The notes beneath the pieces are model-generated. The model was not told where the DNA came from and did not search any database. It saw only the letters and a list, made by a program, of their open reading frames with translations. Shown here piece after piece: positions 1-8,060 of a stretch of DNA of 64,000 nucleotides (its first letter is position 1; the number at the start of each line of letters is the position of its first letter). The DNA comes from Acidobacteriaceae bacterium (GTDB lineage: Bacteria > Acidobacteriota > Terriglobia > Terriglobales > Acidobacteriaceae), in assembly GCA_030041515.1 (NCBI GenBank), contig JASHNS010000122.1, positions 1 through 64,000 of the forward strand, read 5' to 3'. Made by a program: the position numbers and the translations under genes.

Positions 1-242
1 CCTCTGATGCCAAGTTCGACTCCGGCAGCGGCTGGCCCAGCTTTTGGATTCCCACCGACTCGGCTGCCATCGAAACCCACGAGGACTCGACCTTCGGCAT
101 GCGCCGCATCGAGGTCACGTGCGCCCGCTGCGGCGCTCATCTCGGCCACGTCTTTCCCGACGGCCCGCGTCCCACCGGCCTGCGCTACTGCATCAACTCC
201 GCCGCGCTCGCCTTCGAAAAATCCGGCGAGAAGGCACGATGA
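1..242 (+). CDS. msrB: Peptide-methionine (R)-S-oxide reductase MsrB, 3' part
   Basis: C-terminal part of MsrB, which reduces methionine-R-sulfoxide in proteins; the 5' end lies outside the window and the reading frame starts at base 3. Visible family hallmarks are SGSGWPSFW, the structural-zinc pair [12 protein letters not shown], and the catalytic block RYCINSAAL with its resolving/catalytic Cys. The stop codon TGA overlaps the ATG of the next gene (ATGA), so the two are probably co-transcribed and translationally coupled. Identification is firm; only the N-terminus is missing. Confidence 0.95.
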
Positions 243-1255
243 CGCCGCGGGGCCGGCCCCCAGCCGCGCTGCGCCTTCTGCTCGCTGCGTCTTCCGCCAT
301 GCTCCTTTGCGGAACCCTCTCCGCCCTCGCCCGGGGCTGGCATCATCATGGGCCGCCGTGGGATTCGCCGATTGCCTCGTCGCAGAGCTTCCACATCGCC
401 GGCGCCACCATTCAGGTTGACTTCGCCCCCGGCCCGCTCGATCTCCCTCACGCGCAATACATGGCCTGGGTCGAAAGAGCCGCCACCTCCGTCGCCACCT
501 ACTACGGGCGCTATCCCGTGCCGCACGACCGCGTCCTCATCCGGCCGGTCCCCGATGCGGCCGGTGTCCTCAGCGGCACCACCTGGGGCGCCGTCGGCGG
601 ATCTCCCGCCTTCCACTTCATGCGCGTCGGCCAGCACACCACCCTCGACCAGCTCACCCGCGACTGGACCATGACCCATGAGCTCGTCCACACTGCCTTC
701 CCCAATCAAACCGACGAACACCACTGGATCGAGGAGGGAATCGCCGTCTACGTCGAGCCCGTCGCCCGCGTGCAGGCCGGATTCCTGCGCCCGGAAAAGA
801 TCTGGTCGGACATGATGCGCGATATGCTCAAAGGCAATCCCCGGACCGGCGATCAGGGTCTCGACCTTACCCACACCTGGGGACGCACCTACTGGGGCGG
901 CGCGCAGTTCTGCCTCCTCGCCGACATCACCATCCGCGAGCAGACCCACAATCGCAAAGGATTAGAGGACGCCCTCCGCGCCATCCTCGCTGCCGGCGGC
1001 GCCATCAATCAGAACTGGCCTCTGGAGAAAGCGCTCAAAATCGGCGATGAGGCCACCGGCACGCGAGTCCTCGAGCAGCTCTACCGCCGCATGGCCGACA
1101 AGCCAGTCACCGTCGACCTCGATGCGATCTGGAAGAAATTAGGGATCGTGCGGAATGGAAACACCGTGCGCTTCGACAACAACGCGCCAGAAGCGAACAT
1201 CCGGCTCGCCATCACCCAAACGCCACCCTGGGGCCGCATCCACCCTCACCCTTGA
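239..1255 (+). CDS. Secreted HExxH (gluzincin-like) metallopeptidase
   Basis: 338-aa protein with an N-terminal hydrophobic stretch (about residues 10-32) that looks like a signal peptide, so it probably acts outside the cytoplasm. HELVH at residues 147-151 and a following IEEG about 18 residues later match the zinc ligands of gluzincin peptidases (HExxH plus downstream Glu). The substrate is unknown. The start is the ATG overlapping the msrB stop; the longer upstream frame runs antisense-like inside msrB and is not needed. It has no clear affinity to a named family that I can recognise. Confidence 0.8.
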
Positions 1256-1405
1256 TCCAGCAGCAATCCAGCCCAGGATCCAGCAGCAATCCAGCCCAGG
1301 CAGCCCCGCCGTCGATCCGCATTCCGCCGCTCATCGCTGACCGGTTCTTAGCTGACGGGACCATAGCTGACCGGCCTTTAGCTGGCCGTTTCTTAGCGGC
1401 CTTCA
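1254..1405. repeat. Tandem 23-bp repeat plus short imperfect repeats
   Basis: Two perfect copies of a 23-bp unit (1254-1276 and 1277-1299) follow directly on the peptidase stop codon. They are followed at about 1334-1405 by imperfect repeats built on GCTGACCGG / TTAGCTG and CCTTCAGG. Similar 'ctga/ttagc' low-complexity flanks occur beside other genes in this window (for example 16097-16140 and 25871-25963). Function is unknown. Confidence 0.7.
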
Positions 1406-1410
1406 GGCCT

Positions 1411-1599
1411 TCAGGCCTTCACGACCTTGCCCGCCTTCAGGCAGCTCGAGCAGACGCGCAGCCGCTTGTTGCCGCCGCCCACCTTCGCCCGCACCGGGTG
1501 CAGGTTCACGTTCCAGCGCCGCTTCGTCACGTTGTGCGCGTGCGAGATATTATTGCCAAACTGCGGACCCTTGCCGCAAATGTCGCAAACCTGAGCCAT
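1411..1599 (-). CDS. rpmB: 50S ribosomal protein bL28
   Basis: 62-aa bL28. The N-terminal VCDICGKGP, NNISHAHN and KRRWNVNLH blocks and the C-terminal RVCSSCLKAGKV are typical. Two CxxC pairs (residues 5-8 and 50-53) make this the zinc-binding 'C+' form, so no zinc-independent replacement signature is present. Start ATG is preceded by GGAG (ttcggagaagatc). It is a monocistronic minus-strand gene lying tail-to-tail with the upstream peptidase. Confidence 0.95.
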   Translation of the reverse strand: MAQVCDICGKGPQFGNNISHAHNVTKRRWNVNLHPVRAKVGGGNKRLRVCSSCLKAGKVVKA

Positions 1600-1774
1600 G
1601 ATCTTCTCCGAATGTGTCGCGATCCGGCCTCATGGCCAAATTCCGCGAGGTGCTGCGTTCGCGCGGCTCCCGCCGCGGCGCAGAACCTTCAGTTTACAGG
1701 GAATTCCCCCCGCCCACAATCGCAGAGCCACGCCGCGCCCGGTCCGCCGGCCTTGTTTTGTTATCCTGACCCCT

Positions 1775-1909
1775 GTGTTCATTCTGTATGCCGTCTACCT
1801 GGCCTGCACCGTTGCCCTGATCGCGGCCGCAGCGGGCATCGTCCGGCACATTCGCGAGCATCGCCGCGCAGGCCGTTCACCCGCCGACCACTCCGACGAA
1901 CCCTTCTGA
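1775..1909 (+). CDS. Possible small single-pass membrane protein (44 aa)
   Basis: GTG-started frame of 44 aa with one hydrophobic helix (about residues 2-22, ILYAVYLACTVALIAAAAGI) followed by a basic/acidic tail RHIREHRR...DEPF. The positive-inside rule would leave the tail in the cytoplasm. No strong Shine-Dalgarno sequence is visible. It lies between rpmB and bioY and matches nothing I recognise. The TM-plus-charged-tail layout is the only support. Confidence 0.4.
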   Translation: MFILYAVYLACTVALIAAAAGIVRHIREHRRAGRSPADHSDEPF

Positions 1910-2004
1910 AGCATTTTCCCCTGCACACGAATTATGATGGCTGGAGGAGAAGTGCGAGTGCCGCACTTCCCCTCACGTACCCAGGACGTTTCTCCGGAGC
2001 CGAC

Positions 2005-2604
2005 ATGAATCCTGCCGCATCAACGACCTCAAGTCTTCCGCGCTCCTTCACCGTGCCCGCGCTCGCCCGCCGCGCCGTCACCGTCCTCCTGGGAACGCTG
2101 CTCATCGCGATCTGCGCCCACATCGCCTTCCCCCTGTGGTTTACGCCGGTGCCGGTCACGCTGCAAACCTTCGCGGTCCTGCTGCTCGCCCTCGTCCTCA
2201 CCCCCGGCATGGCCGCCTCGGTCATGGTGCTCTATCTCGTCGAAGGCATGGCCGGCCTTCCCGTTCTCGCTCCCACCCCGACGGTCGCATTCCTTCACAT
2301 CTTCGGACCCACCGGCGGCTATCTGGTGGCGTATCCCTTCGCTGCCGCGCTCACCAGCTACCTGCGCCGCCGCTTCCTCCGCGCCAGCTCCGCTCGCGCC
2401 GGCTTCGCCATCTCGGCTGGAGCCGCCGCCATCGGAAGCGCCGTCATCCTGCTCTCCGGAGCTCTCTGGTTCGGCATCCTCACCCGCCAGCCCGCCGTCA
2501 CCGTGCTTGCCATGACCGTCGCTCCCTTCCTGGCCGGAGACATCCTGAAAGTGATTGCCTCCGCCGGAGCCGCTGCCGGCCTGCGCCGCTTCCGCCGCAG
2601 CTAA
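2005..2604 (+). CDS. bioY: Biotin transporter BioY (ECF S-component)
   Basis: 199-aa integral membrane protein with about six hydrophobic segments. PVPVTLQTFAVLL near residue 50 and FGPTGGYLVAYPFAA near residue 115 are the conserved BioY blocks. BioY binds biotin and either works alone or with an EcfAT module; no EcfAT genes lie nearby. Start ATG has GGAGC 5 nt upstream; the longer upstream frame lacks family similarity. Its 3' end overlaps the 3' end of cysH by 4 bp (convergent). Confidence 0.92.
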   Translation: MNPAASTTSSLPRSFTVPALARRAVTVLLGTLLIAICAHIAFPLWFTPVPVTLQTFAVLLLALVLTPGMAASVMVLYLVEGMAGLPVLAPTPTVAFLHIFGPTGGYLVAYPFAAALTSYLRRRFLRASSARAGFAISAGAAAIGSAVILLSGALWFGILTRQPAVTVLAMTVAPFLAGDILKVIASAGAAAGLRRFRRS

Positions 2605-3293
2605 ACTCTCGCTTCCTGCGCCTGCAGGTGAATCCCGCACTCCACTTTCTGGCCGCCCCAGCGCCCGGATCGCGGATCGTCCGGGTCCAGCGGCAGGCTG
2701 GTGCACGGCGCGCACCCGATGCTCGCATACCCCTGCTCGTACAGCGGCAGCAGCGGAATCCTGTGCTCCGCGGCGTATTCCCATACATCCCGCGTCGTCC
2801 ACTCCGCCAGCGGATTCAGCTTGCGCAGCGCATGCCCGCTCGGCAGCAAAAATGTCTCTTCCGTTTGCAGATTCGCCCGCGATATTGACTGCTGCCGTCG
2901 CAGGCCCGTGACCCAGGTGCCGTAATCCCGCAGCGCGCGAAAGAGCGGTTCCACCTTGCGCATTGCGCAGCAGCGGTCCGGCGCCGTCTGGTTCAGGATC
3001 CCGAACAGCGACTCCTGCTCGGCCACCGTCTTCGCCGCTGACACGTTGATCAGATTCAGCCCCCATCGCGCCGCCATGCGATCCCGATACGCCAGCGTCT
3101 CCCGAAAGTGATATCCCGTATCGACGAAGATGACCGGCACATCGGGCAGAATCTCCCGCACCAGATGCAGCACCACCATGGCTTCCGCCTGGAAACTGCT
3201 GGTGACGCACGCGCCGCCACTCCCAGGCGCGCCGGGCACACCCCCCTCCAGCTTCCCCTGCAAAAACTCCCTTGCTTCCGTCTCCAGTTTCAT
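2601..3293 (-). CDS. cysH: Assimilatory adenylyl-sulfate (APS) reductase CysH
   Basis: 230-aa PP-loop reductase that converts activated sulfate to sulfite. SSFQAEAMVVLHL near residue 33 is the PP-loop, DTGYHF follows, and the C-terminal ECGIH carries the catalytic Cys. Cysteine pairs DRCCAMRK and GCAPC are the four ligands of the [4Fe-4S] cluster that marks APS-type (rather than PAPS-only) enzymes. Start ATG has GGAGAGG 5 nt upstream. No other cys gene is adjacent. Its roughly 350-nt 5' leader holds an apparent cysteine attenuator (see 3520-3681), so expression probably responds to Cys-tRNA charging. Confidence 0.94.
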   Translation of the reverse strand: MKLETEAREFLQGKLEGGVPGAPGSGGACVTSSFQAEAMVVLHLVREILPDVPVIFVDTGYHFRETLAYRDRMAARWGLNLINVSAAKTVAEQESLFGILNQTAPDRCCAMRKVEPLFRALRDYGTWVTGLRRQQSISRANLQTEETFLLPSGHALRKLNPLAEWTTRDVWEYAAEHRIPLLPLYEQGYASIGCAPCTSLPLDPDDPRSGRWGGQKVECGIHLQAQEARV

Positions 3294-3410
3294 CGATGCC
3301 TCTCCGGTTGCGAACCGCCGCGGTGCGACGCTGCTCGAAACTTCACTTCATCTGCATCGCGGTCAGAAGCGAGCCGGTTGTCGCACTTCCTGCGAGAGGC
3401 CGCTACAGCC

Positions 3411-3446
3411 TGCGATGCGTGGATGCTCGCAACGAGCTACATCGCA
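3411..3446 (-). other. Stable hairpin in cysH 5'UTR
   Basis: Inverted repeat with outer arms TGCGATG/CATCGCA (3411-3417, 3440-3446) and an inner 5-bp GCTCG/CGAGC stem with a TTG loop, lying between the attenuator terminator and the cysH start. The stretch 3294-3519 has no convincing gene. The hairpin may stabilise read-through cysH mRNA, but no T-run makes it a terminator. Confidence 0.45.
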
Positions 3447-3519
3447 TCTGCGGGGTCGCATGCTTCGCCGGTGAGCCGTGATTCGTCACGCACAACCTCT
3501 GGATGGAGATGGATCAATG

Positions 3520-3552
3520 AAAAACCCGCGTCAGCAGAGGGCTGAGCGCGGG
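3520..3552 (-). terminator. Rho-independent terminator within cysH leader (attenuator)
   Basis: On the minus strand CCCGCG (3552-3547) pairs with CGCGGG (3530-3525) and TCAGC pairs with GCTGA, giving 11 bp with one bulged C and loop CCTCT, followed by TTTTT (3524-3520). It lies 25 nt past the stop codon of the Cys-rich leader peptide and 226 nt before cysH, so it would stop transcription before cysH unless an alternative fold forms. Confidence 0.85.
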
Positions 3553-3587
3553 CTGAAGGGTATCTTCTCTCGGAAAGCTACCCGCAG
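3547..3587 (-). promoter_or_regulatory. Candidate anti-terminator and protector hairpins of the cysH attenuator
   Basis: Two mutually exclusive pairings are visible. (a) GGGTA-G-CTT (3583-3576) with AAG-A-TACCC (3565-3558), a local hairpin that starts at the leader stop codon. (b) TGCGGGT at the leader 3' end (3586-3580) with GCCCGCG (3553-3547), which occupies the 5' arm of the terminator and would act as an anti-terminator. This is inference from hand folding; no energies were computed. Confidence 0.6.
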
Positions 3588-3646
3588 GTCCGGCGCAGCG
3601 TGCAACAACACACGCAACAAGCAACCAGACTCGGGCAAAGACTCAT
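3578..3646 (-). CDS. Cys-rich leader peptide of cysH (22 aa)
   Basis: ATG at 3646-3644, TAG at 3580-3578. The 22 residues include seven cysteines (positions 4, 10, 11, 13, 14, 15, 21), with a core ACCVCCC encoded by TGT/TGC codons. Such density next to a sulfate-assimilation gene is the hallmark of a translated leader that measures Cys-tRNA supply. No Shine-Dalgarno is present; the -10 element ends 6 nt before the ATG, so the transcript should start at the A of ATG (leaderless). A ribosome stalled on codons 10-15 leaves the leader 3' end free to form the anti-terminator; one that reaches the stop codon covers it and lets the terminator form. Too short for ordinary gene finders. Confidence 0.82.
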   Translation of the reverse strand: MSLCPSLVACCVCCCTLRRTCG

Positions 3647-3652
3647 GTTGCA

Positions 3653-3681
3653 ACTATAGAGTCGGCCGGCAGAACCGTCAA
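3653..3681 (-). promoter_or_regulatory. cysH: Sigma-70 type promoter of the cysH leader
   Basis: Minus strand TTGACG (3681-3676), 17-bp spacer, TATAGT (3658-3653), then 6 nt to the leader ATG. Both boxes are one mismatch from consensus at ideal spacing. The predicted +1 coincides with the A of the ATG. Confidence 0.8.
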
Positions 3682-3822
3682 CTCTATTGATGCCACGTTA
3701 ACCCCGCGCCCGCCCCATATCCACAGTTTTCCAGCGTCGATATTCTCGAACAGGCGCACAATGACACTTTCAACCGTGTCGAGTTAGGAAGAAGATACCG
3801 GCAGTCTGGATGGGAACTGAAA

Positions 3823-4083
3823 ATGCCGCCGCCCGCCGCATTCACGCGCACGCTGGAGCGCTTTGAAGCTCGCCTGATGATTCGCTCCATGTGCGCGCAA
3901 TGCGGCGACTCGATGCTCGTCTCCAGACACGACGGCTCGCTCCAGGAGTGGGAGGACGGCCACCGCTGTCACTTCAGCGGCCAGAAGAAAAAGGGTCCAG
4001 CCTCCGCTCCCGGTCCCCGCGAGCTTCACCTGCGCAAAGTCGGAGAACGAAAGCGCGGCGTGGATTCTCGCGATACGCCCTGA
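3823..4083 (+). CDS. Small putative zinc-binding protein (86 aa)
   Basis: 86-aa frame with MCAQCGDSM near residue 23 and HRCHFSG near residue 46, a plausible CxxC...HxCH zinc site, and a basic C-terminal tail. Small zinc-ribbon proteins of this kind recur in this window (4195-4458, 14648-14941). The start is uncertain: ATG 3823 lacks a strong ribosome site and ATG 3877 would retain the whole putative zinc site. No function is assigned. An antisense frame (3784-4143, minus) has no recognisable motif. Confidence 0.5.
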   Translation: MPPPAAFTRTLERFEARLMIRSMCAQCGDSMLVSRHDGSLQEWEDGHRCHFSGQKKKGPASAPGPRELHLRKVGERKRGVDSRDTP

Positions 4084-4142
4084 ATACACTCCTCCACGAG
4101 ATCTCGTGGATCCTCTCCAATCGCAAAATCGCTTTAGCCGCA

Positions 4143-4173
4143 AAAGAAAAACGCCCGCGATCGGGCGCTTTTC
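4143..4173. terminator. Bidirectional intrinsic terminator
   Basis: CGCCCG (4152-4157), loop CGAT, CGGGCG (4162-4167), flanked by an A-rich run on the left and TTTT on the right. It can therefore terminate both the plus-strand gene ending at 4083 and the minus-strand gene ending at 4195. Confidence 0.85.
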
Positions 4174-4194
4174 CGGGCGAAAGCCGCGCTGAAT

Positions 4195-4458
4195 TCAGGA
4201 GGCCAGATATTGCGTCGCCACAGGCATGGGCCGGTGGATCCGCGCCTGCGGCCGCATCACCGCCTGGATGCCCTCAGCGGATTGCCGCATGACCATCGTC
4301 TGCGCGCATGCGCCGCAAAGCCAGAAGTGCTCCAGCCGCCGCGTTCGCTTTCCGTTGCTTCCATCGATGCCGCCCGCGACATCGAAGACAAAGATCCGCC
4401 CCTCCCGCAGATAGTGCAGGGGCTTCCCGCAATTCGGATTGGCGCAATTGCTCACCAT
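4195..4458 (-). CDS. Zinc-ribbon protein (87 aa)
   Basis: 87-aa protein with CANPNCGKPLHYLREGRIFVFD at the N-terminus and HFWLCGACAQTMVM in the middle: two CxxC-type knuckles (C5/C10 and C48/C51) forming a likely zinc ribbon. The pattern is common in small acidobacterial hypotheticals. No enzymatic residues are evident, so a role in nucleic-acid or protein binding is only a guess. It ends at a bidirectional terminator. Confidence 0.75.
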   Translation of the reverse strand: MVSNCANPNCGKPLHYLREGRIFVFDVAGGIDGSNGKRTRRLEHFWLCGACAQTMVMRQSAEGIQAVMRPQARIHRPMPVATQYLAS

Positions 4459-4796
4459 AGAAATATCTCCAACTCTGTGCGCTTCCGAGGTGGTTTCCGC
4501 GGAATGGCTCCCGCGGAGCGTTTCTGAGCGCTGCTGATGCTGATTTCAGCGGAACATTCCGAACGTGTTCCGCGCTTCGACGTGACGGGTAATTCAATCT
4601 GTTCGATGCGGCCTTCAGTCCGGCACGTTCGCCGAACACATTGTGCATCTTTCTCTCGTCCCAGGCAGGCCAGCCATCAGGATTACCAACTCCATTGTCG
4701 CCTGATACGGTACTTTGTGCGAAGAATTGCCTGTGAATTTCTCCGCGCCATCAAAGTCGTATGCAAAAATGAACGTTTGTTCCAAATCGGAGTTTT
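4459..4796. other. Divergent intergenic region with GCGGAAC dyad
   Basis: 338 bp between the divergent zinc-ribbon and proline dehydrogenase genes. It contains several CCGCGGA-type repeats (4495-4520) and a dyad GCGGAAC-N11-GTTCCGC at 4549-4573. No gene was found. It probably carries both promoters and perhaps an operator. Confidence 0.5.
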
Positions 4797-5723
4797 ATGT
4801 CCGTCCTGCGGTCTGCCTTCATTTCGCTCTCCGGAAATTCCCTTCTGCGCCGCTTCGTCGAGCGTTCCACTCCCGGCCGCCGCATGTCCTCCCGGTTTGT
4901 CGCCGGATTTCGCATTGAAGATGCCATGACTGCGGCTACCGCCCTGCATCAGCAGGGCTTTTCCGTCACCCTCGACAGCCTCGGCGAAAACGTCTCCAGC
5001 GCCGGCCAGGCGCGCCAGGCGGCCCAGATTTACCACTGGCTCCTCGACGCCATCGCTCCCTCCGGCCTCAATGCCAACGTCAGCCTCAAGCTCACGCAGA
5101 TGGGCATGGACCTGGACCCGGCCCTCGCTCTTGAAAACGTCGCCGGCCTCGTTCGCCATGCCGCTCAGACGAACAACTTCGTCCGCGTGGATATGGAGGG
5201 CGCCTCCTATACCCAGGCGACCATTGATCTGGTGCGGCGCCTCCACTCCGCCCCGGAAAACCGCGGCCACGTGGGCATCGTTATCCAGTCCTATCTCCGC
5301 CGCAGCGCCGATGATATCGCTGGACTCCTGCGCGACGGCATCCGGATCCGGCTCTGCAAGGGCGCCTACAAAGAACCGCCCAGTGTCGCCTTCCCCGACA
5401 AGAAAGACGTCGACGCCAACTACGTTGCCCTGATGAAGATGCTGCTGAAAAGCGGCATTTTTCATGGGATTGCCACCCACGATCCCGCCATGATCGCCGC
5501 CACGAAAGAGTTCGCCCGCGCCGAGGGGATTGCCCCGTCTGCCTACGAGTTCCAGATGCTCTATGGAATCCGCCGCGATCTGCAGCGCTCGCTCGTTCAG
5601 GAGGGCTACGGAGTCCGCGTCTACGTTCCCTTCGGCGACGACTGGTACCCCTATTTCATGCGCCGGCTCGCGGAACGCCCCGCCAACGTGCTCTTCCTGG
5701 CCCGGAATCTCCTGCGCCGGTGA
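4797..5723 (+). CDS. Proline dehydrogenase (PRODH)
   Basis: 308-aa stand-alone FAD-dependent PRODH that oxidises proline to pyrroline-5-carboxylate. TIM-barrel hallmarks in order: LDSLGENV near residue 60, NVSLKLTQMG near 95, VRVDMEGASY, VIQSYLRRS, RLCKGAYKE and IATHDP. The C-terminal YEFQMLYGIRRDLQ...VRVYVPFGDDWYPYFMRRLAERP is the flavin/substrate-binding end. Start ATG has CGGAGT 4-5 nt upstream. The partner P5C dehydrogenase is not in the window, so this is the monofunctional two-enzyme arrangement. Confidence 0.93.
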   Translation: MSVLRSAFISLSGNSLLRRFVERSTPGRRMSSRFVAGFRIEDAMTAATALHQQGFSVTLDSLGENVSSAGQARQAAQIYHWLLDAIAPSGLNANVSLKLTQMGMDLDPALALENVAGLVRHAAQTNNFVRVDMEGASYTQATIDLVRRLHSAPENRGHVGIVIQSYLRRSADDIAGLLRDGIRIRLCKGAYKEPPSVAFPDKKDVDANYVALMKMLLKSGIFHGIATHDPAMIAATKEFARAEGIAPSAYEFQMLYGIRRDLQRSLVQEGYGVRVYVPFGDDWYPYFMRRLAERPANVLFLARNLLRR

Positions 5724-5760
5724 AGCGTGCCCCGGGCCACCAGGCCCGGATTCGGAAACG

Positions 5761-6489
5761 CTACCGCCCGCCGCCGTCGTACGGCTCAATCGACAGCATA
5801 CTTCCCAGCACGTGCCGCTCCTGGGCCGAAAATGTATGCGTGAACCGCGCCGAGTTCAGGATCTCCTGCCGCTGCTCCGGGGGCAGTTGGCGCAGGCTAT
5901 TGAACGCCTGCCGCATCGCCATCTGGCGCCCCGGCGGCATCAGCCGGAATGCCTCGGCGGCTGCCCGTACGTCCTGCTTGCCCTCGGGAGACAGCCGCTC
6001 AAATGCCTCATTGCGTTCTGCCAGACGCTGACGGTAAGCCGGAGACCTGGAATCCAGATAACGCAGCTGGTTCATCACGCGCTGCTGCTGATTCGGCGTC
6101 AGGCGATTGAATCCCGGTTCCCGCCGCAGCTGGTTCTCCTGCTGCTGGGGCGTCAGATTCTGGTGCTGTTGCAGCCACTGCGGCAGATGCTGTTGCCCTG
6201 GCCGCATCGCGGGACCCATGCCTCTGCCCATCCCGTTCCGGCCCCCAGGCGCCGGTCTCATCGCGCCCCGTGCAGCGGGACGATTCTGCCGGTACGCGGG
6301 TCTGGCCGCCGGACGCCCCGCTCGCGCAGCCTGACCCCTCTGTCCTCCGCCCCATCCCACGCCTCGGGCCCATGCCGGCGTACCGGGCATCAGCATTCCC
6401 AGGGCCAGCAAGGACGCAAAGACGGACGCGAACCCGCCCCGGAGCCACCAACCACGGCTCCTCGTCCTCTTCCTGATCCGGGATTTCAT
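5761..6489 (-). CDS. DUF3106-type exported protein
   Basis: 242-aa protein with an N-terminal signal/anchor segment (about residues 12-40), a Gly/Arg/Ala-rich low-complexity zone (45-110) and a C-terminal helical part rich in Gln, Arg and Leu with repeated 'RxLxPxQQQxxxxxL' units (LTPQQQENQLRREPGFNRLTP is one). This matches the DUF3106 pattern seen behind ECF sigma/anti-sigma pairs in Acidobacteriota. It is third in the sigma/anti-sigma operon and may be a periplasmic sensor or effector; that role is inference. Confidence 0.75.
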   Translation of the reverse strand: MKSRIRKRTRSRGWWLRGGFASVFASLLALGMLMPGTPAWARGVGWGGGQRGQAARAGRPAARPAYRQNRPAARGAMRPAPGGRNGMGRGMGPAMRPGQQHLPQWLQQHQNLTPQQQENQLRREPGFNRLTPNQQQRVMNQLRYLDSRSPAYRQRLAERNEAFERLSPEGKQDVRAAAEAFRLMPPGRQMAMRQAFNSLRQLPPEQRQEILNSARFTHTFSAQERHVLGSMLSIEPYDGGGR

Positions 6490-6571
6490 CGTCCTCTCCC
6501 CGAAAGCAAAATTGCTGCCGGGCCGGCCATGTCGCTCATCCCAGCCTTCGCCCGCCCTGAGCGGCGGCTCC

Positions 6572-7081
6572 TTACAGGCTGTTGTTCGCTGCCGCCCCGC
6601 TGTTGCTGCCCGTATCCTGGTCCAGCGAGTTCAGCTCCTGAAAGACCTGCGAATTCTCATCCAGCGACTGCAGGTCCCGAATCACCGGCGACGCCGACTG
6701 CGTCGGTGTTGCCACCGGCTGCGGTGCCGTAAACCCCTCGTAGATTCCGCCGCCGACTGCAATGGTCAGCGCCAGTGCCGCAGCTGCCAGAGGCCGCAGG
6801 CTCACCCGTTCGCCGAACTTCATCCGCGCCCGCACCCGCTCCAGCCATCCTGCCGGCGCCGCCGCCCGTTCCTCCCGCAAACGCGCCTGCAGACGCCCGT
6901 CGAACCACGGAGAAACCTCCGGCGCCGGCCACGCGTCCAGCGCGGCCATCGTCGCCTCGAGCTCCCTGAGCTCGCGCGCGCACTCCGCGCACCCCTTCAG
7001 ATGCTCCCGCGCCTCGGCTCCCACGCCCTCCGGCGCCAGCAGCATCTCCGGCATTTTCGCTCTCACCTTCTGGCAGATCAT
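6572..7081 (-). CDS. Zinc-type anti-sigma factor (ZAS domain)
   Basis: 169-aa membrane protein. The N-terminal region has C3 and HLKGCAEC (H27-x3-C31-x2-C34), the zinc-associated anti-sigma motif that grips an ECF sigma factor. A single hydrophobic segment (about residues 98-117, LAAAALALTIAVGGGIYEGF) is followed by a short polar exterior tail. It starts 38 nt downstream of the sigma gene. It probably holds the sigma factor at the membrane until an unknown signal. Confidence 0.85.
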   Translation of the reverse strand: MICQKVRAKMPEMLLAPEGVGAEAREHLKGCAECARELRELEATMAALDAWPAPEVSPWFDGRLQARLREERAAAPAGWLERVRARMKFGERVSLRPLAAAALALTIAVGGGIYEGFTAPQPVATPTQSASPVIRDLQSLDENSQVFQELNSLDQDTGSNSGAAANNSL

Positions 7082-7119
7082 ACCCAGTACCTCAATGTTC
7101 CCAGCCGCGCCCCGCGGCT

Positions 7120-7956
7120 CTAATTCGCTTCGACAAAATCCTTCAACCGCTCCCGCAGCGTCTGATACGCCCGAAACAGCAGCGACTTCGTCGCCGACTC
7201 GCTCAGGTGCAGCACCGCGCCAATCTCCCTGTAATCCAGCCCCTGATACTTGTGCATCAGCACGGCGGTCCTCTGCCGCTCGGGCAGCGCCATCACATGC
7301 TTCCGGATCGCCCGCATCCGCTCGTCCTTCACCAGCTCTTCTTCGGCGTCCGGGCGGCTGTCCGCCACGTCGGGAGTCGTGCCCGTCTCCGGATCAGGCT
7401 GGTCCAGATACACATTCTGCGCCGCCCGCTCGTGCCGCGTGTCCCGCGCGTGATTCACGCCCAGGTTCGTCGCGATCCGGTACAGCCACGTCGAAAACTT
7501 CGCCTCCGCCCGGTACGTCTGCCGCGACCGGTACACCCGCAGGAACACCTCCTGCGCCAGCTCCTCGGCCACCGCCTGGTTGTGCACCATGCGGTACATA
7601 AAGCTCACCATCGGTCTCCGGTACTTTTCGATCAGGAAGTCAAACCCGGAGTCATCCCCCTGCCGCACGCGAAGCATGATCTCCGCGTCCGTCATCGCCC
7701 GCCAGTCGGCCCGCCCGAGCGCCCGTTCCTTCTCGCCGCTCGCGGCTTCCAACAACCCCCGGTCCAGAGCCACGGTCGCCATATCCCTGTTAACCCCATC
7801 CGGGTCGTCAGGTTGCGCCGATCTTTCCGGGTCTTCGCCGGCCGGGAGGGGGTCGGAGCCATACTCGTCCGCCGGACCTGGATCGTCCTCTGGCTCACGG
7901 AAATGCAGCGGATCGCGCAGGGCCATACGTGCCTGCCCAATTCTACGCTGCGCCAC
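7120..7956 (-). CDS. ECF RNA polymerase sigma factor
   Basis: Group IV sigma factor. Region 2 runs from about residue 88 (MTDAEIMLRVRQGDDSGFDFLIEKY) through ELAQEVFLRVYR and FSTWLYRIATNLGVNH; region 4 is LPERQRTAVLMHKYQGLDYREIGAVLHLSESATKSLLFRAYQTLRERL. As drawn it is 278 aa because about 85 residues of acidic, low-complexity sequence precede region 2. The first codon is GTG; an in-frame ATG at 7926 and another at 7782 are alternatives. Leader of the operon sigma-anti-sigma-DUF3106. Confidence 0.9.
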   Translation of the reverse strand: MAQRRIGQARMALRDPLHFREPEDDPGPADEYGSDPLPAGEDPERSAQPDDPDGVNRDMATVALDRGLLEAASGEKERALGRADWRAMTDAEIMLRVRQGDDSGFDFLIEKYRRPMVSFMYRMVHNQAVAEELAQEVFLRVYRSRQTYRAEAKFSTWLYRIATNLGVNHARDTRHERAAQNVYLDQPDPETGTTPDVADSRPDAEEELVKDERMRAIRKHVMALPERQRTAVLMHKYQGLDYREIGAVLHLSESATKSLLFRAYQTLRERLKDFVEAN

Positions 7957-8060
7957 CCCCGGCGCAGGGGCCTCGGAGTGCCCCCTTCTGCCCGGTGTTG
8001 GCGGAGGCGGGAAAACGCAACCCCGCGCGGATGCTATCCTTACTCTTGTCCCCTCCTCAA

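Follow-up and report, generated by a model that had tools for sequence, protein, structure and literature searches.

A putatively leaderless ORF rich in cysteine codons, followed by an intrinsic terminator, forms a probable transcription attenuator before sulfate-assimilation genes of Acidobacteriaceae

The window analysed here is a stretch of 64,000 nucleotides from an Acidobacteriaceae bacterium (GenBank assembly GCA_030041515.1, contig JASHNS010000122.1, positions 1 to 64,000). On its minus strand a promoter, a short cysteine-rich open reading frame (ORF), several RNA segments predicted to pair with one another and a second short ORF precede a gene of sulfate assimilation:

3653..3681, minus strand: sigma-70-type promoter with the -35 element TTGACG (3681-3676), a 17-nt spacer and the -10 element TATAGT (3658-3653), read from the sequence
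3578..3646, minus strand: putatively leaderless leader ORF of 22 codons, MSLCPSLVACCVCCCTLRRTCG*, with 7 Cys codons and its ATG at the predicted +1
3624..3644, minus strand: strand 1, the 5' half of the ORF, which by folding can pair with strand 2 (predicted 1:2 protector hairpin)
3602..3619, minus strand: Cys run, codons 10-15 (TGT TGC GTG TGT TGT TGC), the presumed stall site
3579..3599, minus strand: strand 2, the predicted 5' arm of the antiterminator, from the end of codon 16 through Leu-17 to Gly-22 and the first two bases of the stop codon (folding and related leaders)
3541..3562, minus strand: strand 3, the predicted 3' arm of the antiterminator, overlapping the 5' arm of the terminator (folding)
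3520..3552, minus strand: intrinsic terminator, CCCGCGCTCAGCCCTCTGCTGACGCGGG followed by TTTTT (folding against shuffles)
3403..3489, minus strand: second short ORF of 28 codons with a GTG start and an AGAGG-like site, between the terminator and cysH
2601..3293, minus strand: cysH, encoding a PAPS-reductase-domain protein (PF01507, 4e-50), the presumed controlled gene

The promoter, which a first-pass annotation of the sequence had called near-consensus, matches 10 of 12 consensus bases and is the best of three promoter-like sites on both strands of window positions 1-8000 (shuffle mean 1.1). Six nucleotides after the -10 element follows the ATG at 3646, and the ORF reads as it had been annotated, with five of its seven Cys codons in codons 10-15. 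The terminator hairpin (3552-3525) is likewise borne out: it has 11 bp with one bulge and a folding energy of -18.3 kcal/mol (z -4.4), which none of 200 shuffles matched, and TTTTT follows directly at 3524-3520. The stop codon had been placed inside a hairpin; in the fold, a GGGUA:UACCC helix of the antiterminator takes in the TA of the TAG. Folded alone, the antiterminator segment of the window reaches -24.1 kcal/mol (z -1.97), an energy that 9 of 200 shuffles match, and is weaker as a claim from a single sequence; the whole leader (3646-3520) folds with z -3.85. Like the first-pass annotation, we read the ORF at 3293-2601, whose start lies 226 nt past the U run, as cysH rather than as a sister of the PF01507 domain family. 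At least five Cys in 12 codons occur in 1 of 1220 dinucleotide shuffles of 61 upstream regions of sir, the gene of a ferredoxin-type sulfite reductase, and the window ORF has six. By this Cys density and by its conservation in relatives, the arrangement exceeds chance. The second short ORF (3403-3489) has counterparts at loci L004 and L005, with an AGAGG/GGAGG-like site, and ...RCS..RA... is common to the three genomes.

A search of the window's own genome with the region returned a second leader on contig C94, which is 76% identical, encodes MALCPMPVMCCACCCALRRTCG, has a similar terminator and precedes sir (NIR_SIR domains). This copy goes beyond the first-pass annotation, as do the possible 1:2 hairpin and the conservation of the 3' half of the ORF as RNA, both treated below. 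As a DNA query, the region matched 16 of 100 genomes at E<=0.01, its own genome counted, including all 12 of the genus; two of these matches, in G038 and G094, span just 34 and 28 nt, and inspection of L015 and L018 showed no Cys leader. Of 18 leaders read completely, 13 stand before sir, three before cysH and two before cysD, a label that is our own reading of the sequence, Pfam giving such a protein (L035) a PAPS_reduct domain. The covariance search for the leader in relatives, run with a model built from these 18, matched 63 of 250 family genomes and 23 of 79 genera; the matches at L093, L094, L096, L098, L102 and L104 look false. Other genes behind the matches encode peroxiredoxins, rhodanese, a Cons_hypoth698 transporter, which we take to be YeiH-type, outer-membrane barrels and an Rrf2 regulator, and the commonest targets are sulfate-assimilation genes. 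The attenuation reading first proposed for the window gains support from this comparison, in that sir, cysD and cysH are all found behind the arrangement.

Among the sampled genomes, the leader belongs chiefly to sir. Relatives that keep cysH had been expected to keep the Cys run and the terminator, and this holds in part: both stand before cysH in G000 (the window's genome), G001, G006 and G008, and most of the cysH upstream regions read are without the leader. Among the best 30 of 62 cysH matches in the family it lies directly upstream in two, G000 and G008; three others of these 30 (G139, G057 and G117) have a 3-Cys ORF by a loose count, with the terminator absent or weak. In some genomes cysH lies about 2-4 kb from a leader-bearing gene, which is cysD in G003 and sir in G109, G106 and G039. 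Before the cysD homolog of the window genome (G000:C71, L288) stands a different short ORF ending in CCCGCR-stop, after which the scan found no terminator hairpin; its relatives at L287 and L289 end in ...CCRGCR and ...CRRCCR, and the cysD homolog of G008 (L286) has no such short ORF. The window genome may have, in the L288 type, a further kind of Cys leader that lacks a terminator.

Within a sample of the phylum the RNA model matched 8 of 396 genomes, all of them in the family. Because the model was thus too narrow, spread was measured through sir, for which 60 of 100 family genomes have matches (E<=1e-60). The 129 sir upstream regions comprise 61 family places and 78 named loci, copies of the same place being removed; G103 (truncated), weaker sir-like matches (about 36-40% identity) and two of the 80 named loci (short upstream sequence) were left out before counting. 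By title, these 80 loci come from Acidobacteria at several taxonomic ranks, the exception being a MAG titled Opitutia (L189). Of the 129 regions, 121 contain a short ORF with three or more Cys in 12 codons, against 208 of 1290 shuffles (16%), and one with at least five in 52 of 129, against 0 of 1290. The Cys cluster is absent in eight regions, including that of Acidipila sp. EB88. A hairpin of -12 kcal/mol or lower before a T run was found in 113 of the 118 family leaders that have at least three Cys in 7 codons (shuffles 58 of 590, 10%). The terminator counts vary with the T-run rule: under a stricter rule, a terminator of -10 kcal/mol or better is present in 50 of the 61 sir upstream regions and, together with at least three Cys, in 48 of the 78 named loci. 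At eight further sir loci, from the family genus g34, an ORF with at least four Cys is present in all eight and a hairpin by the stricter rule in four. Among named strains, Acidipila rosea DSM 103428, Paracidobacterium acidisoli 4G-K13 and Terracidiphilus gabretensis S55 carry the leader.

Outside the family, sir-like proteins were found in 14 genomes of the phylum sample, and 11 upstream regions were read. Of eight such sir genes at 38-45% identity, only that of G313 has both a Cys-cluster ORF and a strong terminator (-26.5 kcal/mol); in the family f56, the Cys-cluster ORF and terminator are absent from three of six sir upstream regions read. The leader ORF of G313, a member of another family, reads MYDFRTLRCCCSCPC... 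(L296), and this leader may be of older origin or may have evolved independently. The sir leaders at L185, L189, L198 and L203 have a TTGC-type -35 element and, in common, a sequence resembling GGTGACCTGGGTCTGAA that surrounds the stop codon and continues past it.

To characterize the start of the leader ORFs, the best promoter 5' of each Cys run was taken, and the distance was measured from the end of its -10 element to the next start codon that shares the reading frame of the Cys codons. This distance is 6 or 7 nt for 73 of 117 sir leaders, and start codons in the other two frames stand at this distance in 3 of 117; the leaderless geometry is therefore conserved. A terminator is also present in 70 of the 73. 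Judged by promoter geometry, from which the transcription start is predicted, the leader ORFs are probably leaderless.

With the 3' arm of the terminator left out, the end of the ORF folds onto the pre-terminator segment and the 5' arm of the terminator in 18 of 18 leaders. When this arm is present, the RNA downstream of the Cys run goes into the terminator in 11 leaders, that of the window among them, and into the antiterminator in seven. Since the terminator is favoured by energy in these 11, a switch must rely on the order of folding; in other attenuators, the antiterminator wins by forming first. Four antiterminator pairs are changed on both sides in the 18-leader alignment (0 of 500 shuffles), and the terminator pairs hardly vary and show no covariation. 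From the same alignment, RNAalifold recovers just part of the antiterminator and of the 1:2 hairpin. An alignment of 89 matches, produced by fitting to the model and with several secondary or opposite-strand matches among its members, contains 200 double-changed cells, against 57 in shuffles and at most 40 in slid versions.

The match between the ORF tail and the terminator was assessed as an average over leaders. Compared with shuffled tails, the duplex of the ORF tail with its own terminator 5' arm has a mean z of -1.38 (se 0.12; 33 of 112 leaders at p<=0.05), and the window genome's own sir leader has a z of -0.34. In 42 mutually dissimilar leaders, picked for dissimilarity from an older set, own arms are better on average than swapped ones (z -4.9, p 5e-5), the own tail being the best partner for just four of the 42 arms and in the top tenth for 13, with a median rank of 10. 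The tail also differs with the terminator of the clade: CCCGCG goes with LRRTCG, and ACCCACCGCCAG with SGAGRLLT. For the clade with a CGCCAG terminator, a base-by-base three-way test found 12 of 20 paired, against a mean of 8.1 in shuffles; 82 of 2000 shuffles reached this count, and the result is suggestive only. The antiterminator pairing that had been thought possible in the window is thereby strengthened, the arms matching each other across diverged leaders, and an antiterminator that shares the 5' arm of the terminator, as in leader-peptide attenuators, is present by the folds, the arm swaps and the mean z of the duplexes alike.

Frame-shifted relatives keep the sequence CGCCGGACTTGTG, which is translated as RRTC in one lineage and as AGLV in another; a conserved peptide motif, LRRTCG or LCPxPV, was rejected because these relatives keep the nucleotides. 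By this comparison the 3' half of the ORF is conserved as RNA, and just the Cys codons are conserved as codons. The 5' half, strand 1, folds with strand 2 in all 18 leaders, with a mean z of -2.8 relative to strand-1 shuffles; the comparison of own with swapped strands in these leaders gave p 4e-4, and in a wider set the mean z is -0.98 (se 0.13, n=117). Because the alignment columns of this pairing do not covary above shuffles, we are less sure of the predicted 1:2 protector hairpin.

A riboswitch or other known RNA was rejected, since no Rfam match was obtained: at the gathering score, Rfam 15 (including SAM riboswitches and T-boxes) gave only tRNAs in the window and L002 and nothing in 15 other loci, and at E<=1 the only match in window 3280-3800 was RAGATH-4, which scored 17 bits where the gathering score is 104.4. 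The leader-peptide models of NCBIfam did not match MSLCPSLVACCVCCCTLRRTCG or MALCPMPVMCCACCCALRRTCG, 22-residue queries that are weak tests.

The Cys run, the leaderless geometry, the terminator, the antiterminator and the link with sulfate assimilation, all supported by sequence comparison, lead us to propose with good confidence that the window leader is a ribosome-mediated transcription attenuator sensing charged tRNA-Cys; the transcription start, the translation of the ORF, the stalling and the response to cysteine are inferred parts of this proposal. RNA polymerase would start at the A of the leader ATG, and a 70S ribosome would load on the 5' AUG. With ample Cys-tRNA, the ribosome would reach the stop codon and cover strand 2 (codons 17-22), so that the terminator (3:4) would form and transcription would end before cysH. 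With scarce Cys-tRNA, it would stall at codons 10-15, within the Cys run and before reaching strand 2, which would then be free to pair with strand 3, including the terminator 5' arm; no terminator would form and cysH would be transcribed. If no ribosome loaded, strand 1 might pair with strand 2 and the terminator would form, a predicted branch with weaker evidence.

Classical amino-acid attenuators such as those of trp and his consist of a leader peptide with regulatory codons, a mutually exclusive antiterminator and terminator and possibly a 1:2 protector hairpin. The Acidobacteriaceae leader is built from the parts of a trp-type attenuator, the sensing role falling to Cys codons; it differs from the trp and his attenuators in that its ORF would start at or next to +1, that strand 1 consists of the first codons of the mRNA and that the signal would be cysteine.

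A closer likeness is found in mycobacteria, where leaderless polycysteine ORFs are reported to act as cysteine-responsive attenuators (Canestrari 2020, as cited by later papers). As described in those citations and in the text available from PMC1262725 and PMC4633059, these ORFs carry a run of Cys codons before cysteine or sulfur operons, and in M. smegmatis they have a leaderless start; expression of what lies downstream is set by elongation that depends on cysteine, much as we propose for the acidobacterial device. The leader described here shares the ORF that is leaderless by promoter geometry, the contiguous Cys codons and the position before sulfur genes. Mycobacterial control is described as translational, and the available part of PMC1262725 reports from comparative work no conserved terminators; here, in another phylum, an intrinsic terminator is present, together with an antiterminator and perhaps a 1:2 hairpin. 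Translational attenuation of the mycobacterial kind, in which the Cys ORF would control downstream translation and the hairpin would be incidental, is suggested by the role reported for the ORFs of M. smegmatis (Canestrari 2020, as cited by later papers) and by the second short ORF between the leader and cysH. We consider it improbable nonetheless, as it is opposed by the strong hairpin before the T run in nearly all leaders, by the upstream arm that matches this hairpin and by the 226 nt that separate the terminator of the window from cysH.

A similarly small chance is given to sensing by the nascent peptide, which would bind a metal or arrest the ribosome, the signal not being Cys-tRNA. A precedent is CruR, in which the Cys motif of an upstream ORF (uORF) can sense copper and a Cys-containing uORF controls transcription termination (PMC9426467, as far as its accessible text goes); some RNA-model matches, moreover, stand before peroxiredoxins and outer-membrane barrels. 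Against this, the number and spacing of the Cys vary among leaders (CCACCC, CCRRC, a run of 8), the frame shift loses the end of the peptide and keeps the RNA, and the commonest targets are the sulfate-assimilation genes. CruR is, by the same text, a DUF2946 protein with CXXC and RAPP that acts through Rho, features not seen in the Acidobacteriaceae leaders; inspection by eye of the listed leader peptides found neither CruR-type CXXC with a C-terminal RAPP nor any RAPP-type end. Least credible of all is a terminator that acts constitutively behind a small ORF of no regulatory role, or behind the gene of a small functional protein, a reading which is very hard to reconcile with the match of the ORF tail to its own terminator, the tolerance of frame shifts 3' of the Cys run and the placement directly before sir that is kept across the family.

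Attenuation by Cys codons thus remains our preferred reading, and Cys leaders with terminators are not wholly new. In Rhodobacterales, the accessible text of PMC8632094 describes the uORFC-8-2 motif before cysS, for which a Cys uORF and an intrinsic terminator are predicted and stalling by shortage of Cys-tRNA is proposed. Both leaders have Cys codons in a uORF and then an intrinsic terminator; uORFC-8-2 differs in having two tandem Cys codons, usually codons 14 and 15, inside the first stem. That text places it only before cysS in Rhodobacterales and makes no mention of a leaderless start, whereas the leader described here stands before sir, cysH, cysD and other genes in Acidobacteria. In 2010, almost no predicted attenuator of Acidobacteria had an associated function (PMC2965389, accessible part). 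Literature searches on attenuation in Acidobacteria, Cys-rich sir leaders and cysteine attenuation of cysH or sulfate assimilation showed no such system among the matches listed, which were titles and abstract openings with few subscription papers. The first-pass claim of a distinct design, a leaderless Cys leader with an intrinsic terminator, therefore stands in part: the phylum, the regulon and the combination of features appear new, and the joining of a Cys uORF to a terminator had already been predicted (PMC8632094, accessible text).

We lean, by a little more than an even guess, towards a wider reading in which a leaderless three-hairpin attenuator would serve as the family-wide cysteine sensor of Acidobacteriaceae. 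The mRNA would begin with AUG, its first codons would form strand 1, the Cys codons the loop and the last codons the antiterminator, and this single device of about 130 nt, both RNA and coding sequence, would have been copied before sir, cysH, cysD, peroxiredoxins, rhodanese, an exporter-like gene and an Rrf2 regulator. It would do the work that is done elsewhere by regulators of the CysB or CymR type. Shortage of cysteine alone should switch on the genes for making more of it in these soil bacteria, and the leader provides a sulfur control that can be tested in a phylum common in soil. The leader is also a clear example of dual coding, in that half of its gene is conserved as RNA and not as peptide, and it raises the question whether translation from a leaderless 70S start can stay near enough to the polymerase to steer a terminator whose first base lies 94 nt past the ATG. 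At L059, a Cys leader precedes a gene for a regulator of the Rrf2 family, to which the cysteine regulator CymR belongs. At L037, L045 and L058, matches to the RNA model lie 208-236 nt before genes for outer-membrane barrel proteins with a carboxypeptidase-regulatory domain, which are perhaps importers of sulfur compounds.
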